Shown piece after piece: positions 23,284 through 27,971 of a DNA stretch of 37,132 bases. Source of the DNA: Minisyncoccota bacterium (GTDB lineage: Bacteria; Patescibacteriota; Minisyncoccia; Phycocordibacterales; UBA918). The DNA lies in the NCBI GenBank assembly GCA_018062385.1, contig JAGOSI010000003.1:1-37132 (forward strand), written 5' to 3'. The position numbers and the translations under genes were made by a program. Below the pieces are notes generated by a model. It saw only the letters and a list, made by a program, of their open reading frames with translations. It was not told the DNA's origin and searched no databases. The stretch's first letter is position 1; each line of letters begins with the position of its first letter.

Positions 23284-24075
23284 ATGAAGATATTTTCTTG
23301 GAATGTGAATGGAATTCGTGCTGTTTACAAAAAAGGTGCATTACAGAGCTTTATTAAGAATTACGAACCAGACATTCTTTGTTTGCAGGAAACTAAAGCA
23401 TCAAAGGATCAGGTAGAAGTTGATTTAGAAGATTATGAGGAATATTGGTGTTCGGCTGAACGAAAAGGATATTCAGGAACGGCTATTTTTACTAAGGAGA
23501 GTCCAGTTAATGTTTATTATGGTCTACCAAATCACATTACCGAAAAATTTACACTTAGTGATGAATATGGCGATACAAATAACGAAGGTCGAACTCTAAC
23601 TCTTGAATTCGAAGGTTTTTTTGTGGTTTCAGTTTATACACCAAACGCTAAAGATGATTTGTCGCGTTTATCAGCCAGGCAGGCCTGGGATAAAGCCTTT
23701 CTTGCCTATATGAGTGAACTAAAAAAAAGTAAACCAGTAATTTTTGGTGGCGATTTAAATGTGGCGCATACTGAAATTGACTTAGCTCGTCCCAAGGAAA
23801 ATAAAGGTAAAAAAGGTTTTACCGATGAGGAACGAAATGGGTTTGATGAAATTATAAAAGCTGGTTTTGTTGATACATTGCGTTTATTTGAAAAAGGTTC
23901 TGGGCTCTACACCTGGTGGTCACATTTTGGTGGTGCTCGCGAAAGAAACGTGGGTTGGAGAATTGATTATTTTTTAGTGAGTGAAGAAATGGTACCGCTT
24001 GTTAAGTATGCTCGTATACACCCTGAGGTAATGGGATCAGATCACTGCCCCGTTTCAATTGAGTTGATGTTGTAA
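23284..24075 (+). CDS. exoA: Exodeoxyribonuclease III / AP endonuclease
   Basis: A 263-residue member of the EEP family (ExoIII/ExoA/Xth). It nicks DNA at abasic sites in base-excision repair and has 3'-5' exonuclease and 3'-phosphatase activity. Catalytic motifs run in order: FSWNVNGIRA (N7), LCLQETKAS (metal-binding E36), SVYTPNA, FGGDLNVAHTEIDL (Asp and Asn of the active site), GWRIDYFLVS and the C-terminal SDHCPVSIEL with the catalytic His. Length and domain are standard. It is a single leaderless plus-strand gene, upstream of a noncoding region that has DnaA-like boxes. It is the only plus-strand gene between the DUF2339 gene and cca. Confidence 0.96.
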   Translation: MKIFSWNVNGIRAVYKKGALQSFIKNYEPDILCLQETKASKDQVEVDLEDYEEYWCSAERKGYSGTAIFTKESPVNVYYGLPNHITEKFTLSDEYGDTNNEGRTLTLEFEGFFVVSVYTPNAKDDLSRLSARQAWDKAFLAYMSELKKSKPVIFGGDLNVAHTEIDLARPKENKGKKGFTDEERNGFDEIIKAGFVDTLRLFEKGSGLYTWWSHFGGARERNVGWRIDYFLVSEEMVPLVKYARIHPEVMGSDHCPVSIELML

Positions 24076-24096: not shown

Positions 24097-24134
24097 TAAT
24101 TCGTAATGTCCTTTATAAAGGACATTACGAATTA
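24097..24134. repeat. 38-bp perfect palindrome
   Basis: A perfect inverted repeat centred on CTTTATAAAG. It contains the 9-mer TAAAGGACA on both strands and sits directly beside the DnaA-like boxes. It might also end exoA transcripts, but the T tract is poor. Confidence 0.7.
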
Positions 24135-24135
24135 C

Positions 24136-24171
24136 TTTTCCACAGTTATACACACTCATGTCCTTTACACA
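24136..24171 (+). other. DnaA-box-like cluster A (candidate origin element)
   Basis: TTTTCCACA (24136-24144) and TTATACACA (24146-24154) fit TTWTNCACA exactly; CTTTACACA (24163-24171) fits 8 of 9. All are on the plus strand. The cluster shares 13 nt (CTTTTCCACAGTT) with cluster B in opposite orientation. Confidence 0.55.
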
Positions 24172-24187
24172 CATCTGTAAAGGACAT
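24158..24187. repeat. Inverted repeat beside the DnaA-like boxes
   Basis: ATGTCCTTTAC (24158-24168) and GTAAAGGACAT (24177-24187) with an 8-nt loop. The arms repeat the TAAAGGACA 9-mer found in the 38-bp palindrome and in cluster B. Confidence 0.65.
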
Positions 24188-24521
24188 AGTATATATGCAG
24201 GCCCAGAGAGGGCGAGCAGGAATCCCTAGAGTTCTCCGCTGAAATAATTCAGATGAGAACCCTAGGGATACCCCTTAAAGAGTTCATTCTAAAAACAATT
24301 GAGTATTACCTCCAAAAAACTCAAAAAATAACGTTCATAACAATCCCACCCTATAAGAGAAGTCTCCTTACCCTAGATCATGAAGAATTTCTTCACGAAA
24401 GATGTGTAAGTGAAAATGATTTCTCGAAAACAACGTAGAGCTTTGGTCTAGGTTAGCTAAAACATTTAAATAGCGCCAATTTGGGTACAATACCCACCAA
24501 ATATAAAGCTCAAATTTAATC

Positions 24522-24580
24522 AAAGGCCTGAGGGCATCGGTAGCGAAACAGTTTCGCTCACGATTCCCCCAGGCCTTTTT
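24522..24580 (+). terminator. Composite hairpin terminator of an unknown transcript
   Basis: An outer stem AAAGGCCTG/CAGGCCTTT is followed by TTTT. Inside are GGG/CCC, ATCG/CGAT and a perfect inner stem AGCGAAAC/GTTTCGCT. A possible -10, TACAAT (24486-24491), lies about 35 bp upstream, so a short RNA could start there. Confidence 0.65.
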
Positions 24581-24641
24581 TATTTGTTTAATTTTTCCTA
24601 AATGTATTTGTCTACCAAGGTTGTGTCTTTTAGATTAATTT

Positions 24642-24673
24642 AAAAAATAAGCTCATTTCTGAGCTTATTTTTT
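24642..24673 (-). terminator. Terminator of cca
   Basis: A perfect 14-bp stem (AAAAAATAAGCTCA) with a 4-nt loop. It overlaps the stop codon of cca and gives a U tract on the minus strand. Confidence 0.8.
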
Positions 24674-26141
24674 AAACATTATGTTCCCTAGCTATCTCCC
24701 TTAATGCTTCTGCTTCCTCCTCTGCCTGCTTCTCCTTTCCAGCTTCAGCTAAAGCTTCAAGTTCTGCGTCGGGTAGTTTGAACAGCTCCAAAACCCGTGT
24801 CTCCAAGTATTTTTCTGTGTTTTTGGTGGGATCTACCAAAACTTCTTCTAAAAGCGCGTGCAGGGCAAAACCAAGCCTTTTACTAGGCTTCTCGTTGGTG
24901 AGTTCTATCACTCGATTGCCATTTATCTTCAGCATTTTTACGGAAATCGGATCACGTAAAGCCTCGTCCACCATAGCCTTGTATTTTCGAAAGCGAAATG
25001 GCTGTTCCTTTGGTCTGCCGGTGCCAACACGGTCACAAACTCTAAGATTTAGGAGGTTTTGAATTTGATCTTCCCCGATTCTGACAATAGTTCTTCGTAC
25101 CGCTGAAAGAGTGATTTCATCTGGATCGGAGAAAAACATATGCCAACGTACCAATTTTTCAATAATTTCTGAAGCTTCGCGGGGATATTTCAAGCGGGTA
25201 AGGATTTTTTTGGTCATTTTGGCTCCGACTACTTCATGGCCAAAGAAAGTGTAATGTTTATTTTTCCCTCCGGTTCTGCGAGTGATAGGTTTACCAATGT
25301 CGTGTAGTAAAGCTGCTAAACGCATTTCAGTGGAAAATTCTTTATCGGCGGCAGCCTGCATGGTGCGTAAAAGGTGTTCATAAACATCATAGGCATGAAT
25401 ACCACCCTGTTCACAACCAATAGAAGCCTTTAGTTCGGGAATAATATATTCAAGCAAAGCTAGTTTTTCTAGGAAAATAATCCCTTGCATAGGGTTTTTT
25501 GAGTCAATTATCCTAATAAACTCAATGCAAATTCTTTCGATGGCTATTTTCTGTAAAAGCTCAGAATTTCTGACAATTCCAGCAATAGTTTCTCCTTCTA
25601 TTACAAAATCAAGTTCTGTAGCTAAACGAACAGCGCGCATCATACGCAAGGCGTCTTCGCCAAAGCGCTGATCAGGATTACCGACAGTTTTTAAACGTTT
25701 GGCTTCTAGATCTTCCAATCCTCCATATAAATCAACGATTTTTTCATCTTTAATCCGAAAAGCAATAGCATTAACGGTAAAGTCGCGCCTAGCCAAATCC
25801 TCTTCCAAAGAAACACCAAAGGTGACTTTATCGGGGCGTCTAGCATCGCTATAGCCATCTTCGCTACGATAAGGAGTGATTTCTACTACTTTTAAAGTTT
25901 CGTCACTCTCCTCTTCATTTTTCACCCCTACGGTTCCATATTCATTGTTGCAAAAACTGTCAGGAAATAAATCTTGAATTTGGTCGGGATTGGCGTTGGT
26001 TGTGAAGTCCCAGTCTTTTGGTGCACGTTTAAGTAATAGATCACGCACACAGCCACCTATCAAATAAGCCTCAAAACCAGCTTTTTCTAAAGTTTCGGCA
26101 ATATTTCTGACTGACAGTGGAATCTCATTAGTTTTAATCAT
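24672..26141 (-). CDS. cca: CCA tRNA nucleotidyltransferase with HD domain
   Basis: It adds or repairs the 3' CCA of tRNAs. All four tRNA genes in the window lack an encoded CCA, so the enzyme is needed for maturation. The nucleotidyltransferase head carries AYLIGGCVRDLLLKRAPKDWDFTTNA (catalytic DxD as DWD) and ARRDFTVNAIAFR. The RNA-binding helices follow (RFGEDALRMMRAVRLATEL). An HD domain is present (AALLHDIGKPITR, FFGHEVVGAKM), as in the E. coli type. The open frame runs back to 26285, but its first 24 codons are antisense to tRNA-Arg. I therefore start at ATG 26141 (MIKTNEIPLSVRNIAETLEKAGF), giving 489 aa. The tail is acidic and Ala/Glu rich. Confidence 0.95.
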   Translation of the reverse strand: MIKTNEIPLSVRNIAETLEKAGFEAYLIGGCVRDLLLKRAPKDWDFTTNANPDQIQDLFPDSFCNNEYGTVGVKNEEESDETLKVVEITPYRSEDGYSDARRPDKVTFGVSLEEDLARRDFTVNAIAFRIKDEKIVDLYGGLEDLEAKRLKTVGNPDQRFGEDALRMMRAVRLATELDFVIEGETIAGIVRNSELLQKIAIERICIEFIRIIDSKNPMQGIIFLEKLALLEYIIPELKASIGCEQGGIHAYDVYEHLLRTMQAAADKEFSTEMRLAALLHDIGKPITRRTGGKNKHYTFFGHEVVGAKMTKKILTRLKYPREASEIIEKLVRWHMFFSDPDEITLSAVRRTIVRIGEDQIQNLLNLRVCDRVGTGRPKEQPFRFRKYKAMVDEALRDPISVKMLKINGNRVIELTNEKPSKRLGFALHALLEEVLVDPTKNTEKYLETRVLELFKLPDAELEALAEAGKEKQAEEEAEALREIAREHNV

Positions 26142-26212
26142 GATGGCTATTGTAACAGAAAATCGTTGCTTTTTCGTGTATTTAACGTATGATATTTTTC
26201 GTTGGAAGCAAA

Positions 26213-26284
26213 GCACCTGTGGTGAAATGGATATCATTACTGACTTCGGATCAGTCGTTCCAGGTTCGAGTCCTGGCAGGTGCA
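26213..26284 (+). tRNA. tRNA-Arg (anticodon TCG)
   Basis: A full cloverleaf: acceptor GCACCTG/CAGGTGC, anticodon stem ACTGA/TCAGT with loop CTTCGGA (anticodon TCG, reading CGN), and T arm CCAGGTTCGAGTCCTGG. The discriminator is A and no CCA is encoded. It is followed by a long hairpin. Confidence 0.93.
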
Positions 26285-26288
26285 CATA

Positions 26289-26330
26289 AAAATATTAAAA
26301 ATCAGCTTAAATGCTGGTTTTTAATATTTT
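26289..26330 (+). terminator. Terminator of tRNA-Arg
   Basis: An 18-bp stem (one G-T pair) with a 6-nt loop, starting 5 bp after the tRNA, with AT tracts on both sides. Confidence 0.75.
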
Positions 26331-26400
26331 AGTCCATTTTATTTTTAATAAGTTATCCCAAATTATTTTTTTATCTCAAAAATGAACAATCGTCATAGTA

Positions 26401-26406
26401 TATAAT
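26401..26406 (+). promoter_or_regulatory. -10 box (TATAAT) of the HTH/LAGLIDADG-like gene
   Basis: TATAAT 14 nt before the ATG at 26421, giving a leader of only about 8 nt. No SD. Confidence 0.45.
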
Positions 26407-26420
26407 ATACAGACTTTGAT

Positions 26421-27104
26421 ATGTCACTTTCACGTGGAACTTATAAAAAAGAAGCTTATGAGCAAGCTGTCGCCTTTAGAAAACGCGGTTTTACCTATAC
26501 GGAAATAGCTAAAATTTGCGATGTTTCGCGTGGCACAATCTCAAATTGGCTTGCTAAAGAAGACTTTTCTAAACAGATAGCTAAAAATAATAAAGAGAGG
26601 GCCTACAAGGATAATGTGGGGCGAATAAAACTAGTAAATAAGGCTAGAAACGCTGAAAGAAATACCCAATACAAAGAAATTTTGCGTTTAGCAGAAACAG
26701 AATACAAACATTACCGGTCAAATCCCCTATTTGTCGCTGGATTAATGCTTTATGCGAATGTTGGTGATAAAAAGCACGGTAATTTGGTAAGAATTACCAA
26801 TAATCAACCAGAACTGCATAAGATATTCATTAAGTTTGCAATTGAATATCTTGGTGTTCAAAAAACTAACCTCCACTTTTGGTTGTTGCTCTATCCGGAG
26901 CATGATGAGATAAAGTGTATGAAACACTGGAGTCGTAAAATAAACTTGAATGTTGGACAGTTTTACAAGAATCAGGTGGTTATCGGACGTAGTAACAAGC
27001 AAACGTTGCATTTTGGTGTCGGTAATACTATAATCGGCAATACCCTTTTAAAAAAGAAGCTGATTCACTGGGTAGAATTACAGACAAAAGATTTACAAAA
27101 ATAA
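26421..27104 (+). CDS. HTH plus LAGLIDADG-like domain protein
   Basis: A 227-residue protein. The N-terminal helix-turn-helix is clear (about 13-48, FRKRGFTYTEIAKICDVSRGTISNWLAKE). A basic helical linker follows. The C-terminal half (about 90-225: FVAGLMLYANVGDKK, RITNNQPELHKIFIKFAIEYLGV, then GNTIIGNTLLKKKLIHWVELQ) resembles the LAGLIDADG-like fold of the HTH proteins common in CPR and archaea. In those the first motif usually reads like GLYWGEG with an acidic residue; here it is LYANVG, so nuclease activity is doubtful. The gene lies between two tRNA genes, with its stop only 2 bp before tRNA-Gly. A DNA-binding regulator or decayed homing-type nuclease is most likely. Confidence 0.7.
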   Translation: MSLSRGTYKKEAYEQAVAFRKRGFTYTEIAKICDVSRGTISNWLAKEDFSKQIAKNNKERAYKDNVGRIKLVNKARNAERNTQYKEILRLAETEYKHYRSNPLFVAGLMLYANVGDKKHGNLVRITNNQPELHKIFIKFAIEYLGVQKTNLHFWLLLYPEHDEIKCMKHWSRKINLNVGQFYKNQVVIGRSNKQTLHFGVGNTIIGNTLLKKKLIHWVELQTKDLQK

Positions 27105-27106
27105 TT

Positions 27107-27177
27107 GCGGCCATGGTTAAGTGGTATAATGAGTCCTTGCCAAGGATTAGTCGGGAGTTCGATTCTCCCTGGCCGCA
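27107..27177 (+). tRNA. tRNA-Gly (anticodon GCC)
   Basis: Acceptor GCGGCCA/TGGCCGC, anticodon stem AGTCC/GGATT with loop TTGCCAA (anticodon GCC), T arm GGGAGTTCGATTCTCCC. The discriminator is A and no CCA is encoded. It starts 2 bp after the stop of the HTH gene. Confidence 0.93.
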
Positions 27178-27181
27178 CAAA

Positions 27182-27217
27182 ACAAAAATAGCAAAGCGCA
27201 AGCTTTGCTATTTTTGT
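27182..27217 (+). terminator. Terminator of tRNA-Gly(GCC)
   Basis: A perfect 16-bp stem (core AGCAAAGC/GCTTTGCT) with a GCAA tetraloop, followed by a T-rich stretch. Confidence 0.85.
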
Positions 27218-27290
27218 GTGTATTCAGGGAAAAATAATAACACCCTGCGCTAGTTCAAGAATTCAACCATCTGTCTTTAAGGAAATTTAT

Positions 27291-27329
27291 TGTGGAAAAC
27301 TGTGGAAAAGACAGTGTATAGGTGGATAA
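27291..27329 (-). other. DnaA-box-like cluster B (candidate oriC)
   Basis: Four boxes in one direction, read on the plus strand as the complement of TTWTNCACA: TGTGGAAAA (27291-27299), TGTGGAAAA (27301-27309), AGTGTATAG (27313-27321, weak) and GGTGGATAA (27321-27329, 8 of 9 to TGTGGATAA). Spacing is 8-12 bp, near one helical turn. An AT-rich stretch (27330-27390) follows, and TAAAGGACA lies at 27327-27335. Confidence 0.6.
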
Positions 27330-27392
27330 AGGACAGTAAATATATAGGACAAAATCTAAAATAAGCTTATAATGCTAGTTATTCAAAAATGG

Positions 27393-27408
27393 TGTACCAC
27401 GTGAAACG
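27393..27408 (+). other. parS-like site 1
   Basis: TGTACCACGTGAAACG matches 13 of 16 bases of the ParB site TGTTTCACGTGAAACA. Confidence 0.6.
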
Positions 27409-27419
27409 TTTAAATCCCC

Positions 27420-27435
27420 TGTTTCATGTGAAATG
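27420..27435 (+). other. parS-like site 2
   Basis: TGTTTCATGTGAAATG matches 13 of 16 bases of the parS consensus. It is 27 bp from site 1, in the promoter region of yraN. Confidence 0.6.
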
Positions 27436-27450
27436 AACAGTTTCGAATAG

Positions 27451-27456
27451 TATAAT
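27451..27456 (+). promoter_or_regulatory. -10 box (TATAAT) for yraN
   Basis: TATAAT 7 nt before the GTG start at 27464, so the transcript is likely leaderless. parS-like site 2 lies where the -35 would be. Confidence 0.55.
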
Positions 27457-27463
27457 ATGACTT

Positions 27464-27877
27464 GTGCAGGAAAAATCAGCAAATAAAGCAAGAAATAAAG
27501 AAATTGGTAAAATCGGTGAAGATATTGCTGAAACTTATTTAAAGAAGAAGGGTTTTAAAATTTTGTCTAGGAATTACCTTAAAAAATGGGGTGAAATTGA
27601 TATCGTTACACATAGAACCAGCAAAATTCATTTTGTAGAGGTAAAAACTGTTTCATATGAAACTAAATTTGAATTAGATCAGGCGGTTACACGTAGAACT
27701 TGGCGTCCAGAGGAAAATGTACATGCTTTCAAGCTTAAAAAGCTTTACCGAACCATTGAATCCTGGTTGATGGAAAATAACTGTGATTTAGATTGGCAAA
27801 TTGATGTTGTGGCAGTAAGAATTGTGCCACGTGAAAAGTATGCTACGGCCAAATATATCCCAAATGTTATTCTCTAA
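27464..27877 (+). CDS. yraN: YraN/UPF0102 nuclease-like protein
   Basis: A 137-residue protein of the UPF0102 family, with a PD-(D/E)xK-like fold related to Holliday-junction resolvases. Visible are GKIGEDIAETYLKKKGFKILSRNYLKKWGEIDIVTH (E, then GEID) and the HFVEVKTVS motif (ExK), which complete the predicted nuclease site. The biochemical role is not settled. The start is the GTG at 27464: the only nearby ATG is out of frame, and TATAAT ends 7 nt upstream, so a leaderless GTG mRNA is likely. Two parS-like sequences lie inside the coding region (27649-27664 and 27823-27838), which is unusual and suggests the coding sequence doubles as centromere DNA. Confidence 0.88.
   Translation: MQEKSANKARNKEIGKIGEDIAETYLKKKGFKILSRNYLKKWGEIDIVTHRTSKIHFVEVKTVSYETKFELDQAVTRRTWRPEENVHAFKLKKLYRTIESWLMENNCDLDWQIDVVAVRIVPREKYATAKYIPNVIL
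27649..27664 (+). other. parS-like site 3 (inside yraN)
   Basis: TGTTTCATATGAAACT matches 13 of 16 bases of parS, with a perfect GTTTCATATGAAAC palindrome. Confidence 0.5.
27823..27838 (+). other. parS-like site 4 (inside yraN)
   Basis: TGTGCCACGTGAAAAG matches 12 of 16 bases of parS, with an intact CACGTG core. It is weaker than the others. Confidence 0.4.
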
Positions 27878-27955
27878 GGATTTAGTCAAAGTAAAAGATA
27901 ATGGTTATACCTCTAGTGTCACGTATTACTAGTTCTACGTGCAACAACTACTATG

Positions 27956-27971
27956 TGTATCACGTGAAACA
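27956..27971 (+). other. parS-like site 5 (best match)
   Basis: TGTATCACGTGAAACA matches 15 of 16 bases of TGTTTCACGTGAAACA and lies in intergenic DNA after yraN. Confidence 0.75.

Follow-up and report, generated by a model that had tools for sequence, protein, structure and literature searches.

The window that we analysed is a 37,132-nucleotide stretch of contig JAGOSI010000003.1 from a Kaiserbacterium (Candidatus Kaiserbacteria, Paceibacteria). A sequence-only reading of the window had reported two opposed clusters of DnaA boxes with a common core, several copies of a 9-mer and a 38-bp palindrome, and all of these features were found again. Cluster A lies in the intergenic region between the convergent protein genes xth and cca, and cluster B lies upstream of yraN. 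Between them are cca, two tRNA genes and a gene for a helix-turn-helix (HTH) protein. The core AACTGTGGAAAAG is at 27298 on the plus strand, with its reverse complement at 24135. The 9-mer TAAAGGACA, referred to here as the T box, is at 24116, 24178 and 27327 on the plus strand and at 24107 and 24159 on the minus strand. See Table 1 for the layout of the region.

Table 1. Features of the cca–yraN region, in window coordinates.
Feature	Position	Strand	Remarks
xth (ExoIII family)	23284..24075	+	PF03372 and synteny; convergent with cca; left edge of cluster A
T-box pair TGTCCTTTA|TAAAGGACA	24107..24124	.	Core of perfect 38-bp palindrome 24097–24134
DnaA box A1, TTTTCCACA	24136..24144	+	1 mismatch; exact TTATCCACA at same place in several relatives
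DnaA box A2, TTATACACA	24146..24154	+	1 mismatch; T box starts after 4 bp
T box, cluster A	24159..24167	-	
T box, cluster A	24178..24186	+	10-bp gap to preceding T box; followed by -10-like TAGTATAT
Non-coding RNA gene	24199..24585	+	Conserved, with terminator; downstream of cluster A; convergent with cca
cca (tRNA nucleotidyltransferase), spacer gene	24672..26141	-	PF01743, PF12627, PF01966 (Pfam); relatives syntenic
tRNA-Arg(tcg), spacer	26213..26285	+	
HTH protein gene, spacer	26421..27104	+	PF13384; kept here in genus and some other families
tRNA-Gly(gcc), spacer	27107..27178	+	
Two DnaA boxes, cluster B, TGTGGAAAA twice	27291..27309	-	1 mismatch each; exact TGTGGATAA here in many relatives
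Composite element GGTGGATAAAGGACA	27321..27335	.	DnaA box and T box with TAA in common
A+T-rich stretch	27336..27463	.	Candidate unwinding element; 71% A+T vs 61% for window
Two parS-like sites	27393..27435	.	3 mismatches each to TGTTTCACGTGAAACA
yraN/UPF0102 gene, cluster B marker	27464..27877	+	PF02021
parS-like site	27649..27664	.	3 mismatches
parS-like site TGTATCACGTGAAACA	27956..27971	.	1 mismatch

A genome-wide count of the 9-mer and its clustering had been proposed beforehand as a check, and the copies are not spread at the chance rate. The T box shows no genome-wide excess (11 copies, and 11 for the reversed-sequence control), so its unusual aspect is its clustering, with 5 of the 11 copies inside 3.2 kb of the 829-kb genome. 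In 200 dinucleotide shuffles of the window, the mean was 0.59 copies and the maximum 2 per 3.3 kb, compared to the 5 observed; no shuffle reached 3. Conservation in relatives had likewise been set in advance as a test, and relatives keep both clusters and the 9-mer rather than one cluster only. A T box is present within 1.6 kb 3' of cca in 65 of the 70 species with enough flanking sequence (control 9-mer, 1/70), and in 40 of the 70 a DnaA-box match lies within 60 bp of it. On the 5' side of cca, a T box was found in 39 of 53 species (control, 4/53). A census of 25 genomes gave 287 T sites, 119 of them within 8 kb of cca vs 2.6 expected. One relative (G025) has no exact T box adjoining its clusters. 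The equal genome-wide counts and the single mismatch in every DnaA box of the window are what short motifs and weak boxes clustered by chance would give, but the shuffles and the conservation rule such a coincidence out, and we assign it a negligible probability.

Within the present genome, the DnaA boxes are weak evidence, since no exact TTATCCACA occurs among those of the window and 16 one-mismatch matches are found across it. Relatives have exact TTATCCACA at the same places in clusters A and B. The gaps between DnaA box and T box are 4–5 or 14–15 bp, conserved and helically phased, and those between T boxes are 0 or 10 bp, with 10 bp the commonest (15 of 29 pairs). In cluster B of most relatives, the T box is fused with a DnaA box: of 30 relatives, 22 have the composite G[GT]ATAA[AG][AG]GACA in the 700 bp upstream of yraN, and none has its reversed control there.

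GC skew was examined in seven genomes. In four of them (G025, G001, G019 and G018), the skew reaches its minimum or changes sign at the locus and not at dnaA, which is ~30–40 kb off. These four include the sole single-contig genome of closed size (G025). Of the other three, two show broad flat minima over or beside the locus, and one is ambiguous. The skew of G038 is flat across 64–116 kb, and the flat minimum of G026 (156–180 kb) begins ~10 kb left of the locus. In G002, the lowest skew is near dnaA (128–133 kb), and the locus shows a local minimum only. When on the same contig, dnaA of relatives is usually ~30–50 kb from the locus (8 kb in G037); dnaA of the present genome is on another contig. 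Of 30 genomes, 20 have sites of the parS type with at most 2 mismatches in the 700 bp upstream of yraN, and ~210 kb of sequence elsewhere has none. The combination of cluster B, yraN, parS and T box also occurs in another order (L327). We rejected an origin at dnaA, as the promoters of dnaA carry DnaA boxes but lacked T boxes in the 20 genomes covered, and the skew disagrees in all but G002. From these comparisons, the assignment of the cca–yraN region as the probable oriC is well supported. The earlier suggestion of a split origin flanking cca rather than dnaA thus gains support from the conservation of both clusters, the skew minima, the parS cluster and the phased spacing.

Bipartite origins often have parS close by. 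The bipartite oriC of Bacillus subtilis and Helicobacter pylori consists of two DnaA-box clusters around a spacer gene, usually dnaA, and spans up to ~2 kb; it sits at the GC-skew minimum and has a DNA unwinding element in one half (PMC4285127). The Kaiserbacterium locus has two such subregions with a spacer gene between them, an A+T-rich stretch beside one, a position at the skew minimum and parS nearby. However, its spacer is cca with tRNAs and the HTH gene, its spacing is 3.1 kb (roughly 2–10 kb in relatives), and it has an additional interleaved 9-mer system. A dnaA spacer is not an exclusive criterion, as the review itself says "usually" (PMC4285127).

The palindrome had been proposed as the site of an unknown initiator. 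Several relatives lack an exact palindrome, and palindromic arms, where present, vary in sequence between species, so the unit is the 9-mer half-site and not the palindrome; the 18-bp core is identical in G003, G015, G016, G018 and G019, while the outer arms differ. The idea of a dedicated binder persists in altered form, with a putative winged-helix protein encoded elsewhere as the likely candidate. Its previously uncharacterised gene is the second strong concentration of T sites, with 50 sites within 200 bp vs 0.18 expected in the 25 genomes, and the association was repeated in genomes left out of the gene's discovery, with TAA[ACT]GGACA variants in other families. The gene, which often adjoins ftsK, has T boxes both in its leader and in the codons for the linker. 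These sites do not share one reading frame (KGH, IKD); they lie outside the conserved domains, and some are found at the start codon. Therefore, selection looks to be at the DNA level, and coding coincidence can be dismissed. Several genus members have the gene without a T box, and G001 has no detectable homolog.

In the predicted fold, an N-terminal four-helix bundle resembling S23/Avd is connected by a flexible linker to a winged helix. The bundle model (pLDDT ~95 in the domain) aligns with the S23/Avd structures PDB 2rld, 2gsc, 4dwl and 8ub8 at VIA Z scores of 15–16 and an rmsd of 1.6–2.2; the Foldseek E value to 2gsc is 6e-4, and the VIA Z score to 2rld is 16.1. A difference from S23/Avd proteins is the winged helix attached to the bundle, and none of 29 family members matched the S23/Avd Pfam families at E 0.01. 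A search for a known name returned generic HTH matches only. The link between this protein and the T box is strong but correlative. A putatively autoregulated protein of bundle, linker and winged helix is, on present comparisons, the most likely binder of the T boxes.

At a genuine oriC, the T box could instead be bound by the spacer HTH protein or, as a variant DnaA box, by DnaA. The HTH protein has a confident AF2 model (mean pLDDT 92), with no clear match in a PDB fold search. The genus, along with G037, G127 and G203, keeps its gene between the clusters; in many order relatives with T boxes, no HTH gene could be detected at the locus. As for DnaA, TAAAGGACA and TTATCCACA are identical at 5 of 9 bases and have TAA in common in the composite element, but in a set of 20 genomes the region upstream of dnaA, where DnaA boxes are present, had no T box. 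Neither candidate accounts for the T boxes found at the winged-helix gene in most genomes, and as variants in other families. We consider either binder unlikely.

In the genus, a T pair precedes the -10-like box of the non-coding RNA at fixed spacing and in a conserved promoter-like context, and some T boxes may thus be plain operators. The RNA had no Rfam family at the gathering threshold, sub-threshold matches look like chance, and ARAGORN detected no tmRNA. In G032, G036 and G038, T pairs also separate valS from genes for secreted proteins, and many genomes have DnaA boxes 70–150 bp upstream of dnaA. Together with the skew of G002, these observations would suit a winged-helix protein with a small regulon (non-coding RNA, yraN, the protein's own gene and the valS/S-layer region) alongside DnaA-controlled promoters, with the true origin at dnaA or elsewhere. 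However, this would place operators in cluster A, between convergent protein genes, and it does not agree with the skew minima at cca rather than dnaA, the parS clusters at B, the phasing of T boxes with DnaA boxes or the lack of T boxes at dnaA. We regard it as improbable.

We favor, at a probability of roughly 0.77, a bipartite oriC under the control of DnaA and an autoregulated, T-box-binding winged-helix protein. Clusters A and B would be its halves, each bound by DnaA, with parS beside B and the A+T-rich stretch as a candidate for unwinding. The lineage-specific T boxes, interspersed among the DnaA boxes at constant helical phase and overlapping one of them, would be bound by the winged-helix protein, which would also control its own gene. 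CtrA of Caulobacter, Spo0A of Bacillus and HP1021 of H. pylori bind origins and also regulate genes; the origin bound by HP1021 is bipartite, with sites in each half (PMC4285127). Like their sites, the T boxes are short, dedicated and adjoin or overlap DnaA boxes. Those proteins are response regulators, whereas the candidate is a predicted four-helix bundle with a DeoR-like winged helix, without a receiver domain among its Pfam/NCBIfam matches, and the sites also lie in the body of its own gene. By analogy, it may compete or cooperate with DnaA, and either direction of control would set the timing of replication start. If the bundle oligomerises, it could grip several T boxes and connect A with B. 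More tentatively, and with considerable doubt, the protein may be a dedicated Paceibacteria co-initiator that oligomerises on the T boxes of both halves, bridges them and controls DnaA loading; it would then be a replication-initiation factor without a known counterpart in cultured bacteria.

The start and timing of replication in the ultra-small, mostly uncultured Patescibacteria are almost undescribed. Our literature search found placement by skew only and no defined origin sequence for Patescibacteria, nothing on oriC of Kaiserbacteria or Parcubacteria, and no link between TAAAGGACA and an origin among the matches listed. For the CPR Peribacteria, GC skew was used to locate an origin that has short repeats and sequences like DnaA boxes close by (PMC4736985); a conserved non-DnaA motif, split clusters and a binding protein are not named in the part of that account available to us. 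What is new here is a T box phased with DnaA boxes and with its own copies and concentrated at the winged-helix gene. A motif at the origin that recurs at the gene of a DNA-binding protein points to an undescribed replication regulator. For dozens of species, the locus supplies the coordinates of a concrete candidate origin away from dnaA, and it yields a testable pairing of a protein family with a site of nine bases. Growth-rate estimates from metagenomes should profit from better origin placement, and the locus offers a way into the study of cell-cycle control across a large bacterial radiation.

T pairs within umuC-like genes (G002, G007 and G009) were discarded as coincidental, as they are in-frame KDI codons. 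In order relatives, lone T sites within cca likewise look to be of coding origin.

The two DnaA-box clusters that flank cca in opposite orientation, and the 9-mer TAAAGGACA (hereafter the T box), were rechecked on the window and lie where the sequence-only reading had placed them. The T box occurs five times across this locus, compared with at most two copies per 3.3 kb in shuffled windows. Its whole-genome count of 11 equals that of a reversed-sequence control (11); therefore, the signal is one of clustering rather than abundance. The source assembly comprises 829 kb in 71 contigs, with dnaA on a different contig. The nearest named records are Ca. Kaiserbacteria/Paceibacterota MAGs, and cca best matches Parcubacteria bacterium OLB19 (91%). 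Every DnaA box here is one mismatch from the consensus TTATCCACA, which taken alone is weak evidence. Along the window, xth> is followed in turn by cluster A, <cca, tRNA-Arg>, the HTH gene>, tRNA-Gly>, cluster B, and yraN>. The HTH gene in the spacer is kept in the genus and some other families; the AlphaFold 2 model of its product is confident, with no clear PDB match.

Both clusters are conserved. The arrangement of xth, cluster A, cca, cluster B, and yraN was found repeatedly in a set of 36 genus and order relatives. In a second collection of 80 species loci, part of whose species overlap with those relatives, 65 of the 70 species with enough flank carry a T box no more than 1.6 kb from the 3′ end of cca (reversed control, 1), accompanied by a DnaA-box match within 60 bp in 40 of the 70. 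On the other side of cca, 39/53 species have a T box within 6 kb (control, 4). The strict pattern DnaA box-N0-8-TGTCCTTTA was present in 10/41 sampled genomes of the order and 1/343 genomes from the other orders of the class. The cluster-B half may predate the order, since in a genome of another order (G074) yraN is likewise accompanied by DnaA boxes, a T box, and parS.

GC skew changes sign or reaches its cumulative minimum at the cca locus in four genomes (G025, G001, G019, and G018), where dnaA lies about 30–40 kb off and not at the skew minimum. The best case is G025, a single 981-kb contig with a sign change within 73–93 kb, the locus near 83 kb, and a second inflection near 485–534 kb, about half a genome away; exact T boxes are absent at its clusters. 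In G026, a flat minimum at 156–180 kb takes in the locus (166–172 kb), with the lowest bin ~10 kb to the left. Skew is flat across 64–116 kb around the locus in G038; in G002, the minimum at the locus is local, that near dnaA being slightly lower. In 20/30 genomes, the 700 bp preceding yraN contain a parS site (up to two mismatches); about 210 kb of sequence from elsewhere yielded none. Near yraN, the window itself has four parS-like sites, one with a single mismatch. Conservation, skew, and parS thus bear out the proposed bipartite origin, and we consider the locus a real, conserved oriC with cca in its spacer (probability of oriC identity about 0.9). About 100 bp upstream of dnaA, the window's genome has a pair of DnaA boxes, likewise seen in relatives, that is free of T boxes and looks like DnaA autoregulation.

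T boxes are phased with DnaA boxes. The two lie 4–5 or 14–15 bp apart and inverted T pairs 0 or 10 bp apart, in steps of about one helical turn. At cluster B they overlap in TAA to form a composite, G[GT]ATAA[AG][AG]GACA, found in 22/30 relatives (control, 0) and commonly as TAAAAGACA in the order. With TAA common to both, DnaA and the protein that binds the T box are probably in contact or mutually exclusive at this element.

T boxes outside the origin pointed to one gene, adjoining ftsK in the order relatives inspected, that encodes a predicted winged-helix protein of about 230–310 aa. A census of 25 genomes gave 287 T sites: 119 fall no more than 8 kb from cca, against 2.6 expected, and 50 no more than 200 bp from the winged-helix gene, against 0.18 expected, or 24 once the 8 genomes used to find this gene are removed. 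The link recurs outside that discovery set, other orders included, where variants TAACGGACA and TAATGGACA gather at the gene (L305, L307, and L320), a possible co-variation of motif and protein. Within the gene, T sites fall in a poorly conserved linker in differing frames (KGH/KGQ and IKD), with more around the start codon, a pattern indicative of selection on the DNA itself and of autoregulation. Several genus members lack an exact T box at the gene; in the window's genome it is broken by a contig end. Homologs occur in 39/40 relatives (none detected in G001) and, at E 0.001, in 111/188 genomes of the class, where weak matches may be other HTH proteins; in a phylum sample outside the class, matches span the HTH part alone. 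By association, this protein is likely the T-box binder.

In an AlphaFold 2 model of a relative's protein, a disordered linker joins a four-helix bundle (residues 32–142, pLDDT about 95) to a winged helix (200–268, pLDDT about 94), the latter matching many winged helices. The bundle resembles S23/Avd proteins (2rld, Z score 16.1, R.M.S.D. 1.6 over 107 aligned; Avd chain 8ub8_C, Z score 15.8). Avd-type bundles oligomerize, which suggests multivalent binding.

All evidence for the origin and T-box system is computational. In the mechanism we propose, DnaA would bind both clusters and unwind B on its A+T-rich side. The T-box protein would occupy the same helical face, sit over DnaA's own site at the composite, and tune DnaA assembly so as either to promote or to restrain initiation; it may also bridge the origin halves and feed back on its own gene. 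We think it fairly likely that this system is tied to oriC and previously undescribed (open-access full texts searched); possibly it is a new kind of initiation factor.

Part of the T boxes are probably promoter operators. Others lie upstream of valS or adjoin large secreted-protein genes (G038, G032, and G036), which suggests a small regulon beyond the origin. A conserved non-coding RNA, with no Rfam family, adjoins the origin, and its terminator precedes cca. Its 5′ hairpin AGGCCCAGAGAGGGC is invariant. A further hairpin carries ACCUCCAA, with an anti-Shine-Dalgarno-like CCUCC, as its loop in nearly all cases, over stems that vary among species yet pair, with modest per-genome support.

Coordinates of the features discussed (window unless another contig or retrieved locus is named)
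Feature	Sequence	Position	Strand
T boxes, five copies	window	24107-27335	
Cluster A (xth/cca intergenic)	window	24136-24171	
Non-coding RNA	window	24199-24585	+
HTH gene	window	26421-27104	
Cluster B (upstream of yraN)	window	27291-27329	
parS-like sites	window	27393-27971	
Winged-helix gene, broken	G000:C5	11889-12366	
T box at winged-helix gene	G000:C5	11877	
DnaA-box pair upstream of dnaA	L001 (G000:C31)	1000-1019	
DnaA boxes, T box, and parS at yraN	L327 (G074)	129-1035	
T boxes at valS/secreted-protein genes	L069	5149-5218	
T boxes at valS/secreted-protein genes	L077	5272-5303	
T boxes at valS/secreted-protein genes	L264	3176
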